Of a stretch of DNA of 64,000 bases, positions 3,930-64,000 are shown in pieces (position 1 is the first letter of the stretch; every line of letters begins with the position of its first letter). The notes beneath the pieces were generated by a model, which was not told the origin of the DNA, made no database searches, and saw only the letters and a program-made list of their open reading frames with translations. A program made the translations under genes and the position numbers. Source of the stretch: Lyophyllum atratum (Eukaryota; Basidiomycota; Agaricomycetes; Agaricales; Lyophyllaceae); contig JACGCN010000035.1 in assembly GCA_014905825.1 (NCBI GenBank), forward strand, positions 248,001 through 312,000. Direction: 5' to 3'.

Positions 3930-6872
3930 ATGAAGCCCTGTCTTCTGCTTTCTGCCTTCGCGGGGATCCCCCTGCTGGCCATTGCGTCGAATCACATCCA
4001 GTTTTCGCACTATGGCAAGCGAGCAGATTGCAGATATATATCTGTCGCTTCTGGGGATGGATGTGCAAGTCTTGCGACTAAATGCGGCGTCACAGCAGCG
4101 GAGTTCACGTCCTTCAACCCGCAATTGTCTTGCTCGACTCTACAGGTGGACCAGGTAATTGAATCAAATACTCATTCCAACTCCATACTCATAAACCTGT
4201 AGTGGGTCTGCTGCAGTTCGGGAACGCTGCCATCCAAGTGATTCACGCCGCACAACGGTGCCATTCTTCATAGGCAGCGATCACTAATTTTCTGCCAACA
4301 GGCGCCCTTCGCCGAAGCCCGACGGCTCATGCTTCGCCGTGGACGTCGTCGACGGCTCCGATTGTTCTCAATTTTCCGTCAAATATGATGTCTCGCTGAC
4401 CGAAATCGATACTTGGAACCAGCAGACCTGGCGGTATGTCGTGACCTCTGCACCTCTTCCTGCACTCCTTAGGCATCACGCAGATGGACTGGCTGTTCTG
4501 GTCTCCAACCTGGCATGAAGATTTGCATGTCGGCGGGTACATCCCCCCTTCCTGCACAGAACAGCAGTGAGATGCATGATTCGTCCTAAAACTGAACATA
4601 TACTGATGTGGTTTGCCCCCTTAAAGCGATCCCGTGTGGACTTGAGAGTGTGGGCAACAAAGAATGCCCGCTCAGAGCGTGCTGTGGGAAGTAAGCTTAA
4701 CGATAATTCCGTGGAAATCTTGGAAGATTCATGCTCACGGATGCGTTCAATAGATGGGGCTACTGCGGTCTGACGTCAGGGAATTCAGATATCTCACGCT
4801 TTTAGATTTGCTGAGACGTTTACTAGTGACGACTTCTGCGAGACCAGCAACGGCGCACCCGGAACTGGCTGCCAATCTCACTGCGAGAAGATCAGTGAAT
4901 TCGATAACGTTGGACTTAGCACTGGTAAGTGTTTCTCTGCAAAGTACGAGGTCGGGAGACCTAATGCGCCCGAATTCAGCCAATCCCGGTCGCAACATCA
5001 TCGGGTACTACAGCAACTGTACGCGTCTACCTCTAATCATGACCCATTCTTTTCCCATTGTTTACATGTATAGTTTAGGGTCTGCCCACCGTTCTTGCAG
5101 TGGTGTTCCCAATACCGTCCTTCCCGCCGTGCGACCGAGCGAATTAGATGCAAACTCGTTCACACACATCGTCTATTCATTTGCATCAGTTTCGCGCGGA
5201 GACTTCAGGCTGATAGAAACGCAGGATGATGACAAAGACCTTATTGCTGAGCTCCAGGCGCTGAAACAGATCAATCCCAACCTTAAAACGATGTGGGCCG
5301 TCGGTGGTTGGGCTTTCAATGTAAGCTTTATTCGTCCTGTATTTTAGTCTCGCAGTAGGCTCAGGCTTTACTAGGATCCTCCCACCCAAGATATATTTTC
5401 TTTGGCGGTTCGCACGTCCTCCAGCCGAACAACATTCGTCAACAATATCATCAGCGGGTTGGCTTCCTACGGTTTCGACGGCATCGACATTGTACGTTCG
5501 TTCTTTATGGATCACAACGCTTGAACATGACTGGACTCTTACGCAGGACTGGGGTACGTCCTTCGTGTTCTGCCCTTGACTACATGCACTGATGACGGTT
5601 GCCACAGAATATCCGGGAACCGAACGGGGTGGCATCGAGGCTGACGGCCAAAACTTCCTTGCTTTGTTACAGGAACTCTACGCCGCGACTTCAAGTAGAG
5701 GTCTTCAGATCAGTTTTACCGTCCCTGCGTCTTTCTGGTGCGCTTAAACTTGACTGCACTGAATACATACTCACATCACCGCTTTAGGTACTTGCAACAG
5801 TTCCCAATAGTCGAAATGCAAGATTATACGAACTGGATTAACCTGATGACATACGTGAGCATCATAAGACTATATAAGAATCTGGCGGCGCTAAAATACC
5901 ACCTAGGACATTCACGGAAGGTTTGCAGGCCATAACCTACAGATTTGTCTATTTTATTGACGCTATGCGCAGCTGGGACATCAAATTCGGCACCGGCGTT
6001 CTTCCTCACACCGCCATCCCAGAGATCAACGCAGCAGTAAACATGCTTCTCAAAGCCGGTGTCAACATCGGCAAAATCAACCTCGGCATTGGCTTTTACG
6101 GTCGCTCGTTCACCCTCTCCGATCCTGGCTGTAAAGTTGCTGGATGCCCCTTCACTGGAGGCGGGACCGTGGGGCCATGTACAGGTAAGTCTGCCATGAT
6201 AGCCTCCGCAAACATTTGCCAATGGTGCGCTAGGCGGAGAAGGGTTCCTATCGTACGGAGAGATAGACTATCTCATTCAATCTAAAGGCCTTAAACCGAC
6301 ATACAACTCTACCAGCAAGACTATGACTTTGGGTGAGTTTCCACGTTATGTTCCATGACTCAAGAGGCTGATCAGATGGGGTTTCCAGTCTACGACGACC
6401 AGTGGATTGGGTATGTATCGTATTATCATTATGCAGGATATCATGGTGCTAACTGGCAATTTCGGAGCGTAGGTACGAGGACGCTTCAACATTGGCCACA
6501 AAACTGGAGTACGTTCTGAAGCGTACGATGCCCGGCGTCCTCATTTGGGCTGTCGATCTGGATAAAAACAATCAATTATTAAGCGCGGCAAGTACAAATC
6601 GTAGTGATGATACTGAGCACGTCTTATAACAACGTCATCTACAGGTCGTCGGTCACTCCCTGATTCCCGTGAAATCCGCAACGGATTGCCCCGCTGATGG
6701 CATATGGAAGACGACAAGAGCCGGCCAGACAGCGAACGTGCCGTGCTTCTCCTCCAGCGATAATCCACATCGCAGCCGGCGGTGTATTGGGCCAAATTGG
6801 GCAGATGAAGGTCAATCGTTCTGTGGAGCGAGCCAGATGATGCTGGCTGCATTTGGTCACTGTGGGTTGTAG
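3930..6872 (+). CDS. LysM-CBM18-GH18 chitinase (killer-toxin-like subgroup)
   Basis: Secreted endo-type chitinase of the fungal subgroup with LysM and CBM18 modules. The start at 3930 gives a clear signal peptide (MKPCLLLSAFAGIPLLAIAS). A LysM (RYISVASGDGCASLA...) is followed, after short introns, by a second LysM-like unit (CFAVDVVDGSDCSQFSVKYD, about 4340-4550). The CBM18 knot (CCGKWGYCGLTDDFCE) lies at about 4625-4880, spread over three exons. GH18 begins at IIGYYSNW (about 5000), includes MWAVGGWAFN (about 5300), and has the catalytic DGIDIDWEYP split across introns at about 5480-5620. It continues to the barrel end GVLIWAVDLD (about 6535-6570). A C-terminal Cys module (RRCIGPNWADEGQSFC) ends at stop 6870-6872. 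About 15 exons. One oddity is that the usual M.YD.HG.WD motif reads MTY...DAMRSWD around an unclear splice site near 5850-5970. It lies head-to-head with the LysM-EF-hand gene. Confidence 0.85.
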
Positions 6873-56265: not shown

Positions 56266-58521
56266 ATGAAGGCATCAGGGGTACACTTCCTCGTGTTCTT
56301 AGTTGGTCATTTGGCAGTTGGTACAACTGCGCAGACATGGTGAGTGTTCCCGCCATGGTGGCATCTATTGAGCTTAAAGGATGCCCAACGCTGAATTTTA
56401 GGTGCGGCAAAAACTATATGTCTACCTCGCCAGTCGTACCGCCCGGTAAGTACACACGCAAAACGTCCTTCGAATACCGACTGATAGCTTCTGTCCGCAG
56501 GTGGTCAATTTCCCATCCCGACCAAGTCAGATACGCCCCTCCTATCTCTCAGATGCTCCCCAGCTATTCGACCATATCTGTTGGAAGATGCAGCCTCTAC
56601 CGACGCGTCGTTTGTTTCGATTATAGTCGATGCTCCAATGACTTTCTTTCAAATCGCGAATGCAGTCCCAATCAACTCTCATCCCGCGTCTGGTATCCTT
56701 GATGTGACCGTGTCTGTTGACGGGAGACCACTCACACACGGCGCGGTAAGACTGAACTCTACCAAGACCTTGCTTCCGTTCTCCCTTCGCTCCTTGCAGC
56801 CACGCACAACTCCGTACACTATCTCATGCGCAGCGACCTTCGCAACGCAGACTTTCCATGCAACAGGTTCCCTTTCGTATCTCCCTAATCCTCCTTCCAG
56901 CATTGGATCCGTCACCAAAATGGACCTGAGGACCGGAGCACTACTAGCGCGACCTGCAGATGGAAAGGGAGGTCCCTATGCTCCGGTCCTTCCAATCGGG
57001 TTTTACACACAGTTTGACGGTTATCTGGCCAAGAATTTATCGATCTCTGCTGAACTTGCAGCACAAGGGTGTTTATCCTCCTTGACTCTTGTCAATTTAC
57101 CCCAAGGCTAATGACTACGCCTAGATTCACAATTGTCAGTAACGATGGCTTGCTCTGACACTTCTATCGATGTTGATATTGCGCGCGTTGAAAGGTTCAT
57201 CCGATACCGTCCTTTGGCAACTTGACGGCCCTGGATTTAGTGCTCGACAACATGCAGGAGGCAGGTTTATACCTCATGTATGACATGCGAGGGTATATGC
57301 TCCACGGAAATAGGTTTTTCACCATCTAATGTCTTCGAATTAGCACATATCAGAACAAGACATCGGTCACGGAACAAGTCAACCGGATCAAGTCCCGACC
57401 TAATCTCCTACTTTGGTATACCGCTGACGAACCGGACGGGACGACTGACCCCCTCGATGCGACTACCATCTCCTCTAATCTCATCACATCCTTGGATGGC
57501 GGAGATGGCAATGGAGGTGCCGGTTACCATCCTGTTTCGCTAGTCCTGAACTGCCAGGATTTCTTCTTCACGCAAGTCTTTTAACCTGGACTTCCCGGCT
57601 TCTGCTAATGCAACACGACATCCAGTGAGTACACGAGCGGTTCAGATATCGTCATGCAAGATGCCTACATAATTGGCAACAATGTTACGTTCTCCAGTCA
57701 ATGGGATACGGTGTGCACTAAGGATTACGGCGACTGCGGGTACGGACTTATGTGTGCAGGACTTTGCCAGACGGAAGTGGCTGATAGACAGATGCTCTGT
57801 CTAGGTGTGACAACTGTTTGGGCAAGTTCGAGGATATATCCACCAGGATGGACGAGTTCCACGAGAGGTTATTTATCAATGGGTGGGACAGGACCAAAGC
57901 GGTTTGGACTGTTCCCCAAGGATTTGGGAATGAAACGTCAGTAGAGAATTTCCGACGCTTTCAAACACGATATTAACCTGTACTTCCTCAAAGATACTGG
58001 AAGGTATTTATCTCCCGACACGATTTACAAGGGTGTCATACGACTCATACACCTTTCTTCAGCGGTTCCCCACAGGCAAAGAATTCGTCGTTGAGAGTAT
58101 TCTTGGTATAAACCACGGTGGGCTAGGTGAATACTCTGCATGTCTTATATTCCTCCCACCTCATCTCCCAATGTCAGGCGTAGTCTCATGGGACGACCCC
58201 ACCTCGCCGGACATCAAATCTTCCGCATCCCTGCTCGCCCTTTCCTTGCCCAAAATGACACGCTTCATCCTCAGTCCAGCCGCATCTTTCCGTCAGGTGA
58301 CAGTCAACAGAGTTGACATCGGCCTCTGGACCGTTGGTCCGGAGACACTGGTCCTGGCTAGCAATATGAACTACGCAGCCGTGACCATTCGCCTGACGGA
58401 TATATCCCTCAAATCGAAGGGTGTAGAACAGGTGCTGGATAGTGGGGCAGTCGTGAATCATGACAAGACGGGATTCACTTTCGAATCGGTTGGCTCTGGG
58501 GCGTTCGTCGTGAAGAAGTAA
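56266..58521 (+). CDS. secreted TIM-barrel glycoside-hydrolase-like protein
   Basis: The start at 56266 gives a signal peptide (MKASGVHFLVFLVGHLAVGT). A Cys-containing N-terminus (WCGKNYMSTSPVVPPG) and a beta-rich domain follow (VSIIVDAPMTFFQIANAVP to TFHATGSLSYLP, about 56600-56890). The next part looks like a (beta/alpha)8 barrel: MDLRTGALLAR, PVLPIGFYTQFDGYL, AGLYLMYDMRG, LLLWYTADEPDG (possible acid in DEPD, about 57410-57440), a CGCDNC loop and WTVPQGFGNE. It closes with a beta-rich C-terminal domain ending FVVKK, stop 58519-58521. About ten exons. The overall plan is that of secreted fungal glycosidase-like proteins; the family number and substrate cannot be assigned by eye. Convergent with the PX-GH18 gene. 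Confidence 0.7.
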
Positions 58522-58898: not shown

Positions 58899-61382
58899 CT
58901 ATTTACCAAGGCTCTTGCGGATCGCATTCTGCAACGTCAAGCCATCATCCTATTGGACAGACTGTTAAATGACATTGAAATTGTAAGGCGGATTTGGACG
59001 AACTTGATCAAGAGACCAGGTGAAACATCCGGCCATGCCGTTCTTCTTCGCGAACGCTGCTTTGCTCGCAACGGAATATGTATCTGATCAGCAGAGCGAT
59101 TAGGTGGGCCAATCAAATCATAGAGCATAGCTCAATTACCATCGTATGTTACAACGGTCTTTTGCGCAGTGTTGAACAAGAACTGGTGTAGAAACAGGTA
59201 AGCTGGAGTACATGAGCACCACATAAGAGGATATCGTACCGGTGTATCACTGCAGTTGTCCCACCCTTCAAATAGAACAGGTCGTTCGATGATACTTCAA
59301 ATGCCACAAAATAAGACGCATACCCATTGTGAAACCGCCACCCTCTCCGTAATTGCCATCAGCATGCTTAACGAGCGCGCCGGATTTGACGATGACGCTG
59401 AAAGGTATCTGTTGTCCCCACCATGATTGCAGATTCGCATTGGCAGCAGCCGTCTTCAGCTCCGTCGGACGAGCATGGGAGCCATTGAGGAAGTGCATAT
59501 CAGGTTCGGATGCAGAGACCTCTGGTGCGCCATCTTCCGTTGAGTCAAGGACAGATGCGAGCTCCGTCTGTTGCAGGAGGAGCATGTCAGACGATGGGAG
59601 TAAACTGCCGGTGAGGACCTTCTTGGTGCTCTGTGAAACGTAGCCGTAGAGCGGCAGGCCGAGCAGCAACTTATCATAACAACCGCAGTAAGCAAAGCGG
59701 AGAAGTCCTGGAGTAAGCTATGTACAGACCTTTGAGGCAGGGAAGCCAGCCGCTTTCCATTGAGCGAGACCAGCCTGGGCACTTGCCTGGGGTTGTCTGG
59801 AAGTTCCGCACAAGTTTCCTTTGGGACGAACATTTTCAGCTGACTATGCTGTCATTGAATATTGAGTTTAACATACCGAGAGGTGCATTGGGACCAGGAT
59901 TGGCTGATGCGCCCCATACGTCGTAGTTCCTGCGCAACATGAGTGATTTGTTGATAATTTATCGCGGCGTTACAACACTTACATGATGTTAGCGTATGTC
60001 ATCTGCGCCGCATACGCAGAGACGTCTTTGAGGGGGCTTCCGTTTGAACCCAGCCACGGAAGATGAGGAACCGCGGCGGAGATGATCTTGGAAGGACCTG
60101 GAAAGGTAAGAGACTTTTAAGTTACCGCACGAGGCTTAGGGAAAGTCCTCGATACCTAGCGCCGTTCGGAGAGCCTTCAGCAGGCTGAGAAGATTCGCAG
60201 CATCTGCAGACGAAAATGGTTGTCCAGCTCCAGGTGAGTTGGGATATTCCTGGAATCGCGTGGTTCAATTCCTGATGATTCGTATAGCCAATCGACTTCT
60301 TACCCAATCAAGATCGATTCCTGGGACCATGAACTGAGCCGCGAACATCAACGACCGCTATATGGAGTACTCACCATCCAAACCATTGTTACTAATAGCG
60401 CTCTTGATCGAGTTGACCAACTTTGTACGGTTGGCAGACGATGAACATGAAGAGCTGAAATACTGACAGCCTCCCCATCCACCTAACATGAGAATTTGAT
60501 CAATCATCCGCCCCAATCTGACAGAAACATTGACCACAGACCAATAGACAGCACGACCTTGGTACCTTTGCCACTGTTATGCGCAGCAGTAGCAAGTCGC
60601 TTCAAGATAGCCTGGCTTCCTGATCCAAATGAGAGTGCGGAGGAAGAATTGGGTGTGGCGAAGGCTGTTACGTACAGGCATGCCGTTAGTCAAGACCGCC
60701 ACAGAAGGAATTTTTAGGTGGCGACATACCGAAGAAGAGGATATCGAACTTGGAGAAATTGACTTTCTCCGGGGGGAAACTGCCAGCAGCCCAGTCGACG
60801 TAATATGCCGCAGCGATGGGCGTCGCGGCTGCTTCCACGTCCCCATTAGTAGATGTGATGCCGAGGTCTAGCGCCGCCTTCCTTGAGAGCGTCGACGGAA
60901 CCGCATCCTCCACATCAAACTTATGCGGCATGGGGGCATCGTCTGGCGAGAGGAACTTCAGGAGGGCTGGGGCGTCTTTGTAGTCCGGTGACCTGAGGAG
61001 GTCAGAGAGGTACTGCGTGAGTCCAGCTTTGCGTTCAGCGATGAGAGTGTCGTCAACCCATGCTGATGGGATGAAGGTCGTAGCGAGCAGACGCTTCGGT
61101 GGGAGAGTGAAGCGGTCTTTCAATGCATCTAAATGGGTGGTGAGTCGCCATTGTACCCTAAAGTTGGAGGACTATCTTTACCATGAAGACTGGAGAACTG
61201 CGTCATGGCCTATGTCAGCGCGATGTCCAGAGTCAGCTAAGTACAATGATTTCACTAACCTCGGAATATCGCTTGGGCAGAACGGTATGTTTACCATTGA
61301 GAGTTACCTGGACATTGTAAAGGATGTGGGGGCGGGGGGACGAGGCAGTCGTGTGGTTATTGATAGTAATGAGGGGAGCCAT
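58899..61382 (-). CDS. PX domain-GH18 chitinase fusion
   Basis: The start at 61382 (MAPLITINNHTTASSPRP) has no signal peptide. A PX (Phox homology) domain follows over three exons: HILYNVQVTLNGKHTVLPKR, the RYSE signature, FSSLHDALKDRF, the LPPKR loop and the FIPSAWVDDTLIAERKAGL...YLSDLL helices. The exon at about 61130-60690 continues without a break from PX into GH18 (AAAYYVDWAAGSFPPEKVNF ... FDILFFG), so the fusion lies within one exon. The GH18 catalytic motif DGIDLDWEYP spans introns at about 60390-60215. Later blocks are MNYDVWGA-type sequence, CGTSRQPQASAQ, LLLGLPLYGYVS and MAGCFTWSLDQ, ending DDGLTLQNAIRKSLGK with stop at 58899. GH18 enzymes hydrolyse chitin; PX binds phosphoinositides on cytosolic membranes. 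A chitinase without a leader but with a PX domain is odd and suggests intracellular membrane association or unconventional export. Confidence 0.85.
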
Positions 61383-62278: not shown

Positions 62279-64000
62279 CTAAGCTTTACCCAGGTTCGCA
62301 CGAATAACGTTCTGCAATGCCAGGTCGTCATCCTAGCCAGACAGGTTCCACCAGAAGGATATGATGAGCGCTGGTACGAGGCGGGAGAAAAGTCCCATAA
62401 ATGAGTGAAAAATTCACCTGATCAAGGGACCACGTAAAGCAACCAGCCATCCCAGCTTTTTTCGCGAACTGGGTTTTCTTAGCAATGCTTGAAGTATCGC
62501 CATACGTGACCACAGTCGTCCGGGCTATATTGAACAAAAACTGAACCAAGACAAAGGGAGAAGGAGGGTGATGACATGTCAGCTGCGTGACTAGACATTT
62601 CAATACGGCTGGATAATCACCGGAGTATCACTGCAGTCGTCCCAACCTATCGCCACACCACAATAAGCCTAAAGTCAACAACAACGAAAGTATGAGGGCC
62701 CTACCACGAGTATATCCATTTGCACCAGCATAACTGCCATCGGCGGCTTTCTTCAGCGCTCCAGTCCGCACGAGCTCCTTGAAGGCAATCTGCTCCCCCC
62801 ACATGCTGCTGAGGTCACCAGCTGGGGCAAATGACAGGTCCTGAGGAGGGTCCCGTGGATGTGCGGCAGGGCTTGCGCACGGATCAGGCATGAGACTTCC
62901 TGAGAGCTTCTTTGAAGTGCTCTTGGAGACATAGCCATAGAGGGCAAGTCCAAGGAGAAGCTTGGCTGCTGGGAAGCCGGCCTTCGTCCACTGAGCTAAT
63001 GCAGCTTGGGCAGTCGCTTGTGGCTGTTTAGATGTTCCGCAACGGTTTCCTGGAAAGAACCTCAGTTCCATGGTTTCGTGAGACATATTGACAAAGAAGC
63101 GTACCAAGCGGTGCGTTGGGTCCAGGCTTTGATGATGCGCTGTAGACATCATAGTTCCTGTTGTTATTATGTGAATATGAGCGCTCCCTTTGGATAGAAT
63201 CACTTTCTCACATTATGTTGACGTAGGTCATTAACGCAGCATATTGGGAGACGTCGGCCAATGGTCTGCCATCAGCGCCGCGCCAGGGCATATGGGCGAC
63301 CGCCGCAGAAATAATCTTCGAGGGTCCTAATCGAATGGTAAGTGACGTCTTAAATCCATTAGATTGAAGAACCCCACCCAGGGAAGCGCGGAGAAGCTTG
63401 AGAAGAGAGAGAAAATTCGCAGAGTCGGCTGGTGAGTGCGGACTACCTGCACCTGTCGAGTTCGGGTACTCCTGAAAGGGGATTATGCTAAAGCGCAGCG
63501 GGGTTGTGACATATCCTTACCCAATCGATATCAACGCCTAAAAGCTCGTTATGTCATTCTGAGATACATCCATTGAGGTGTGTTGAGCGTACCATCGAGC
63601 CCAAACGAGTTGATGGCTGCAACCAAAGCGTTACTGAATTTGGTACGGTTGGTGGCCGTGCTTGTTGCGTTGCTAAACCAATGGCTACCCGCCCAACCGC
63701 CTAGTCATCTAGATTAACGGCGGATAGGAATTTTCGAAGAAATAGTTTACCAACGGATAATACAACCTTTGTCTTCTTACCGCTTTGGCGGGCACTGGAC
63801 ACGAGTTTCCTCAGCGTATCTTGGCTACCACTGTCCCAGTTAAGGGTAGAGGAAGCGTTTGGTGTTACAAAAGCTGGTGGACGCGACTCCATTAGTGTCG
63901 TTGACTCGAAGAAGCGATGTGCATACCAAAGAAGAGAATATCGAATTTGCCAAAGTCGAGTTTATTCGGAGGGTGACTCCAAGTACACCAAGCCGGATAG
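62279..64000 (-). CDS. GH18 chitinase paralogue, 5' part outside window
   Basis: Same exon order as the GH18 part of 58899-61382. The window edge is at YPAWCTWSHPPNKLDFGKF and FDILFF. AFVTPNASSTLNWDSGSQ and KTKVVLSVG follow. The catalytic DGVDIDWEYP is split by introns at about 63600-63465. Next come CGTSKQPQATAQAALAQW, LLLGLALYGYVS, WGEQIAFKELVRTGALKKAA and MAGCFTWSLDQ. It ends DDDLALQNVIRANLGKA with stop at 62279. Catalytic residues are intact. Whether it also begins with a PX domain cannot be seen. A tandem duplication is the likely origin, since both copies are in the same orientation about 0.9 kb apart. Confidence 0.85.

Follow-up and report, generated by a model that had tools for sequence, protein, structure and literature searches.

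The agaric Lyophyllum atratum carries a gene in which a PX phosphoinositide-binding domain is fused to a glycoside hydrolase family 18 (GH18) chitinase, and we could confirm that this fusion is genuine. The encoded protein of 560 residues, referred to as copy A, has the order PX domain, short linker and GH18 chitinase barrel. Our preferred reading is that it is a leaderless chitinase, derived from a secreted GH18 enzyme and tethered by its own PX domain to endosomes or vacuoles that carry PI3P, on their cytosolic face, and we give this reading a probability of roughly 0.5. The architecture as such is already known in print; the L. atratum gene adds a member to it. The gene lies in the window, i.e., the whole stretch of 64,000 nucleotides that was analysed (C81:248001-312000, in an assembly of 64.8 Mb), where the following features were identified:

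61382..58899, minus strand: PX-GH18 gene, copy A, with 15 exons, 14 GT-AG introns and 560 aa
61382-61260 and 61197-61182, minus strand: exons 1 and 2, PX strands b1-b3 with the lipid residues R38 and Y39 (RYSEF)
61128-60730, minus strand: exon 3, the remaining PX (K58 of PPKR, R79 of ERKAGL), the linker and the start of the GH18 barrel in one frame
60881..60910, minus strand: linker motif EDAVPSTLSR, residues 120-129, within exon 3
60304..60482, minus strand: exons 5 and 6, the GGWGG strand and DGIDLDW
60249, minus strand: catalytic Glu263, first codon of exon 7
58899..60249, minus strand: exons 7-15, the remainder of GH18 including MNYDVWG, Cys353, Cys499 and Trp540
62285..64000, minus strand: copy B, a second PX-GH18 gene cut by the window edge, with homology to ≈64526 in contig C81

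The limits of copy A given in the first-pass annotation, 61382 and 58899, hold, with start and stop codons at the two ends. An alternative acceptor for exon 2, which leads to an AMTQ insertion and 564 residues, was rejected by comparison with the NCBI model P0001 of L. atratum, and a shift by 12 bases gives RYSEF and 560 residues. A 96% identical allele in which all 15 exons are matched is present on contig C24, which represents the other haplotype, and its translation is identical to P0001. Exon 3 is a single open frame in which the first PX helix is followed by LPPKR, ERKAGL and finally YYVDWAAGSFPPE. As one open exon spans both domains, the fusion cannot be a product of exon joining, just as had been claimed from the window alone, and the second haplotype agrees. 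It is thus highly improbable that two adjacent genes were misjoined or that the PX match arose by chance. Automatic gene models of the family do vary, and several of them start inside the PX domain, but the single open exon covers both domains in both haplotypes as well as in the tandem copy. Furthermore, PX (PF00787) and GH18 (PF00704) occur together in one predicted protein in 117 of the 120 homologues listed (best 120 of 455), which excludes a chance match.

These homologues came from a search in which 7997 candidates were scored and 455 were retained at E ≤0.001; the homologues listed here and below are the best 120 of 455, the best 120 of 1185 and the best 120 of 587. The co-occurrence of both domains across Agaricomycetes, which had been put forward as a check, spans at least eight orders (Agaricales, Polyporales, Russulales, Auriculariales, Gomphales, Atheliales, Gloeophyllales, and Amylocorticiales), where order assignment was checked on one example species each. 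A ninth order, Corticiales, is represented by Punctularia P0304, in which PX is recognised by its residues and not in the Pfam column. The homologue from Hypsizygus marmoreus (P0004) is publicly named "Oviduct-specific glycoprotein", which is misleading. Between the two alleles the overall dN/dS is 0.14 (50.5 synonymous and 23.5 other changes), with 0.10 for GH18 and 0.27 for PX, the latter from only 11 changes (6 synonymous, 5 other). The PX-GH18 architecture is widespread and under constraint.

When the 564-residue model was analysed with Pfam, PX scored 29.8 bits against a cut-off of 21.6 and GH18 scored 178.9 bits against 29.6; the only other match was a sub-threshold EndoS barrel. In the allele P0001, PX reached 40.6 bits against the same cut-off. 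In alignment A1, whose last 10 of 56 members were picked as PX-less relatives, GH18 was scored by Pfam in 56/56 members and PX in 46/56. PX domains have three strands followed by helices. The elements predicted for P0001 (E4-11, E21-28, E31-37, H39-49, H69-92, and H100-105) come in this PX-like order, and a PX sequence search of the PDB had SGK3/CISK, SNX22, and SNX24 as best matches. The AlphaFold model of P0001 has a mean pLDDT of 82 and contains a GH18 TIM barrel whose best fold match in the PDB is RmChi1 (E 1.3e-26), which was also the best match of the whole protein in a sequence search of the PDB. RmChi1 of Rhizomucor miehei (5XWF, 5YUQ, and 7FBT) shares the barrel and the active site with PX-GH18 but has no PX match and, in the alignment, has neither Cys residue of the 353/499 pair described below. 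An endo-β-N-acetylglucosaminidase of the EndoS or EndoH type was rejected, as the EndoS barrel scored 15.7 bits against a cut-off of 27 in Pfam and Endoglyc_H scored 33.2 against 300 in NCBIfam (P0001). The NCBIfam chitinase ChiD model likewise stayed below its cut-off in P0001 (102 vs. 750).

The catalytic motif DGIDLDWE (residues 256-263) is complete and satisfies DxxDxDxE with its catalytic Glu. The first-pass annotation had called the motif intact, to which we can add that it is pieced together from exons 5, 6, and 7. Among the window protein and 120 homologues, E263 and W540 are invariant (121/121 each), and Asp occupies positions 259 and 261 in 119/121 rows each. The full DxxDxDxE expression is missing in 13/120 homologues, nine of which have Ala or Ser in place of its first Asp. 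An invariant catalytic Glu together with near-invariant Asp residues would imply strong pressure for catalysis.

The PX domain carries R38, Y39, K58, and R79, a combination of R, Y/F, K, and R that we take to be the PI3P pocket motif of p40phox. Arg58 of p40phox also appears in a passage of PMC3025985. Far from being absent in all orthologues, these phosphoinositide residues are near-invariant in the homologues examined: R38 is kept in 119/121 rows (two gaps), position 39 is Y in 115 and F in four (two gaps), position 58 is K in 119 and R in two, and R79 is found in 121/121. PI3P recruitment of PX-GH18 is well supported as a prediction from the sequence. The Pfam score is modest (29.8 bits on the 564-residue model) and loop 61-67 of the P0001 model has a pLDDT <50, which would fit a PX domain that has lost lipid binding and has a structural or protein-binding role instead. 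We consider this improbable, as the four pocket residues are kept in almost every row, more strictly than the domain overall, which has a mean identity of 59% to the window protein across the rows.

The linker between the two domains contains a conserved motif of its own. The mean identity of the linker region to the window protein is 50%, yet residues 120-129 are mostly near-invariant (E120 in 120, D121 in 119, P124 in 120, S125 in 119, T126 in 119, and R129 in 117 of 121 rows). Expressed as ED-x-LPST-x-S/T-R, the motif was found in 121/127 PX rows and in 4/178 others. Of these four, P0087 is without the RYS stretch, and the other three are models whose start lies within PX. The six PX rows without the motif are P0032, P0070, and P0078 (with a visible variant form) and the copy-B-type rows P0131, P0132, and P0143. 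No Pfam or NCBIfam match was obtained over the motif.

The N-terminus of copy A is low in hydropathy (best 10-mer mean 0.83 by a home-made measure, which is not a trained predictor), in line with the earlier statement that the protein has no signal peptide. A crude leader rule was positive in 17/127 PX rows, and the 11 of these that were inspected have brief hydrophobic stretches immediately before PX. Within the barrel, 285/297 aligned rows have a Cys at the positions of both Cys353 and Cys499. The exceptions comprise three rows without both residues and nine that are gapped at one of the two sites, and no row has a Cys facing another letter. Such paired conservation suggests a putative disulphide bond and hence an oxidising destination, and it also fits a disulphide retained from a secreted ancestor. 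N-glycosylation sequons were counted as well, with means of 4.63 in PX rows and 2.86 in the others; they were set aside as a topology test, as the higher count in PX rows had no interpretable meaning.

The origin of the family was investigated with a careful tree of 77 barrels based on the GH18 columns only. One clade of 43 rows (support 100/100, stem 0.84) brings together all 30 PX rows, two models whose truncation falls within PX and 11 rows without PX. Its sister consists of Agaricomycete GH18s (18 rows + 3) and the outgroup of Ustilaginomycotina (13). Sister and outgroup rows were deliberately picked for leader-like N-termini, and the crude leader rule applies to 16/18 and 13/13 of them, respectively; across all 178 PX-less rows it applies to 55, while 82 start at a Met at the barrel head. 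One of the sister GH18s is encoded by L. atratum itself (C64:2023673-2027626). Its NCBI model, P0302, starts at the barrel-head Met and has an in-frame hydrophobic leader upstream, so that starts at this Met are doubtful and secretion predictions from such models unreliable. The nearest GH18 relatives outside the clade are leader-bearing proteins of Agaricomycetes and Ustilaginomycotina (e.g., P0218, P0229, and P0246), which have a leader and a linker where PX-GH18 has the PX domain. The simplest reading of the tree is that a secreted chitinase probably swapped its leader for PX on the stem of the clade or soon after.

The 11 PX-less rows within the clade are eight brown-rot polypore rows and three nested ones; at least P0127 looks like a truncated model. 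The PX-less brown-rot polypore GH18s include P0126, P0128, P0134, P0141, P0196, and P0129. In the 77-row tree the brown-rot rows have no resolved position at the base of the clade, and in a quick 162-row tree they branch off immediately outside the PX rows. PX may have been lost from them or, given this placement, may never have been present. Rhodonia P0129, one of these PX-less proteins, has a leader-like start; it could have gone back to the secretory route or have kept the ancestral state. The careful tree needs a minimum of five changes for PX and the quick tree a minimum of 11, a part of which is due to gene models.

Beyond copies A and B, the closest other PX domain found in the same genome belongs to a Vam7-like PX-SNARE gene (27% identity, E 1.6e-7); the name Vam7 is our own assignment. 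Its SNARE stretch matches syntaxin 8 in the PDB (5.1e-10). Vam7 (PX + Qc-SNARE) resembles PX-GH18 in its PX domain but is a SNARE and not an enzyme. Pfam detected no C-terminal SNARE in PX-GH18, although it also gave no SNARE match for the SNARE piece of the Vam7-like gene, which makes this a weak test.

Copy B is located on the same strand as copy A and starts beyond the window edge, and the tandem is present on both haplotypes. In a frame-by-frame reading it keeps RYSQ, PPKR, ERKAGL, and DGVDIDWEYP, the last of these spread over three frames, and it has the same PX-GH18 fusion but lacks the linker motif. Proteins of the A and B types also have consecutive locus tags in Tricholomella (P0003/P0123) and Termitomyces (P0032/P0143), which suggests that the pair is old in the PX-GH18 family. 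Elsewhere in the window, the plus strand carries another series of GH18 exons at 5138-6300 (C81:253138-254300), for which C24 has a counterpart. A convergent neighbour gene shows up as exon-like open frames on the plus strand at 56488-58521, where no Pfam match was obtained in six frames.

The first-pass annotation knew of no function described for this architecture. The architecture itself turned out to be in print already, and the part of the statement that concerns function stands for the passages in question. The chitinolytic inactivity of one such protein reportedly goes back to Karlsson et al. of 2016. In the passages on PX chitinases in PMC8097845, a PX-carrying chitinase of Phanerochaete chrysosporium is described as "expressed but chitinolytically inactive", and another, from Ganoderma boninense, as up-regulated in its host, the oil palm; no function is given there for either. 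By this verbal description only, both Agaricomycete proteins have the same architecture as the one from L. atratum; the first is said to be inactive and the second host-induced. Our literature searches pairing PX with GH18, by domain names or Pfam ids, found nothing, and PX with chitinase led to this passage in PMC8097845 alone. Nothing was found in print on PX-GH18 of L. atratum in these searches, which were made by domain and not by name. The statement on inactivity counts against a plain chitinase role for PX-GH18. Loss of the motif may not explain inactivity in Phanerochaete, since P0120 from Phanerochaete sordida keeps the catalytic motif.

If PX-GH18 is indeed a tethered chitinase derived from a secreted one, an ancestor of the mushroom-forming fungi would have exchanged the signal peptide of a secreted GH18 for PX together with the conserved motif of the linker. 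The PX domain would bind PI3P and thereby recruit the cytosolic enzyme to endosomes or the vacuole, from which it would be delivered to chitin. The destination might be the vacuole or multivesicular bodies, where the enzyme would serve autolysis and the recycling of wall material, or the outside of the cell, which it would reach unconventionally at septa and tips. Action at vesicles, septa or the vacuole and unconventional secretion, as proposed from the window alone, are both compatible with our results.

A narrower explanation, possible but on the unlikely side, is that export takes place at the septum: PX would park the enzyme on endosomes that gather there, as a Cts1-like system with a built-in anchor. 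The precedent comes from Ustilago maydis, where, according to the relevant passages of PMC12167484, the PI(4,5)P2 binder Jps1 assists the export of Cts1, a leaderless GH18, and binding was also seen for Cts1 itself. Endosomes with PI3P and the FYVE protein Don1 gather at the septum of this fungus (passages in PMC12167484 and PMC6386918), and a leaderless GH18 is mentioned for the mushroom Hebeloma cylindrosporum (PMC12167484). The conserved Cys353/Cys499 pair would also suit septal export. As in PX-GH18, a leaderless GH18 is coupled to phosphoinositide binding in the Cts1/Jps1 system, but there the lipid binder is a second protein, Jps1, which has no canonical PIP-binding domain and shows a preference for PI(4,5)P2, whereas PX-GH18 is one chain. 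Moreover, the authors of the U. maydis work did not see Cts1 or Jps1 on motile endosomes, according to a passage in PMC7358432. The Ustilaginomycotina relatives with full N-termini all have leaders (13/13 chosen) and are thus not of the Cts1 type in appearance, and identity with Cts1 via these relatives was dropped. No U. maydis name occurs among the relatives listed (best 120 of 587); Cts1 is UMAG_10419.

A PX domain faces the cytosol, and PX-GH18 might accordingly be a membrane-bound enzyme or lectin at chitosomes that trims or binds chito-oligosaccharide fragments or nascent chains, handling or sensing them in the cytosol, and not a wall chitinase. This explanation, which we regard as rather unlikely, would agree with the inactivity stated for a relative in the above passage of PMC8097845. 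It sits poorly with the conservation of Glu263 and W540 (121/121) and of D259 and D261 (119/121 each), and with the fact that RmChi1, the nearest solved relative, is a chitinase. To return to the tethered chitinase, a more specific version of it can be proposed tentatively, as an idea that is somewhat unlikely in its full form. It holds that PX-GH18 is a single-chain, self-anchoring export system, in which a secreted chitinase left the ER route, gained a Vam7-like PI3P domain plus the linker motif, and travels on endosomes to the septa or vacuoles of mushroom hyphae, and which was acquired once in Agaricomycetes, with some brown-rot lineages having lost PX or never having had it. If this is true, cargo and lipid anchor, which are separate in Ustilago as Cts1 and Jps1, would be united in one protein.

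Chitinases act on the cell wall, while PX domains operate at internal membranes, from the cytosolic side. The presence of PX together with a chitinase across at least eight orders implies that there is a route on which either a leaderless hydrolase reaches chitin or chitin fragments reach the cytosolic face. This one enzyme family thereby offers an evolutionary contrast between a leader and a PX domain, together with a linker motif.
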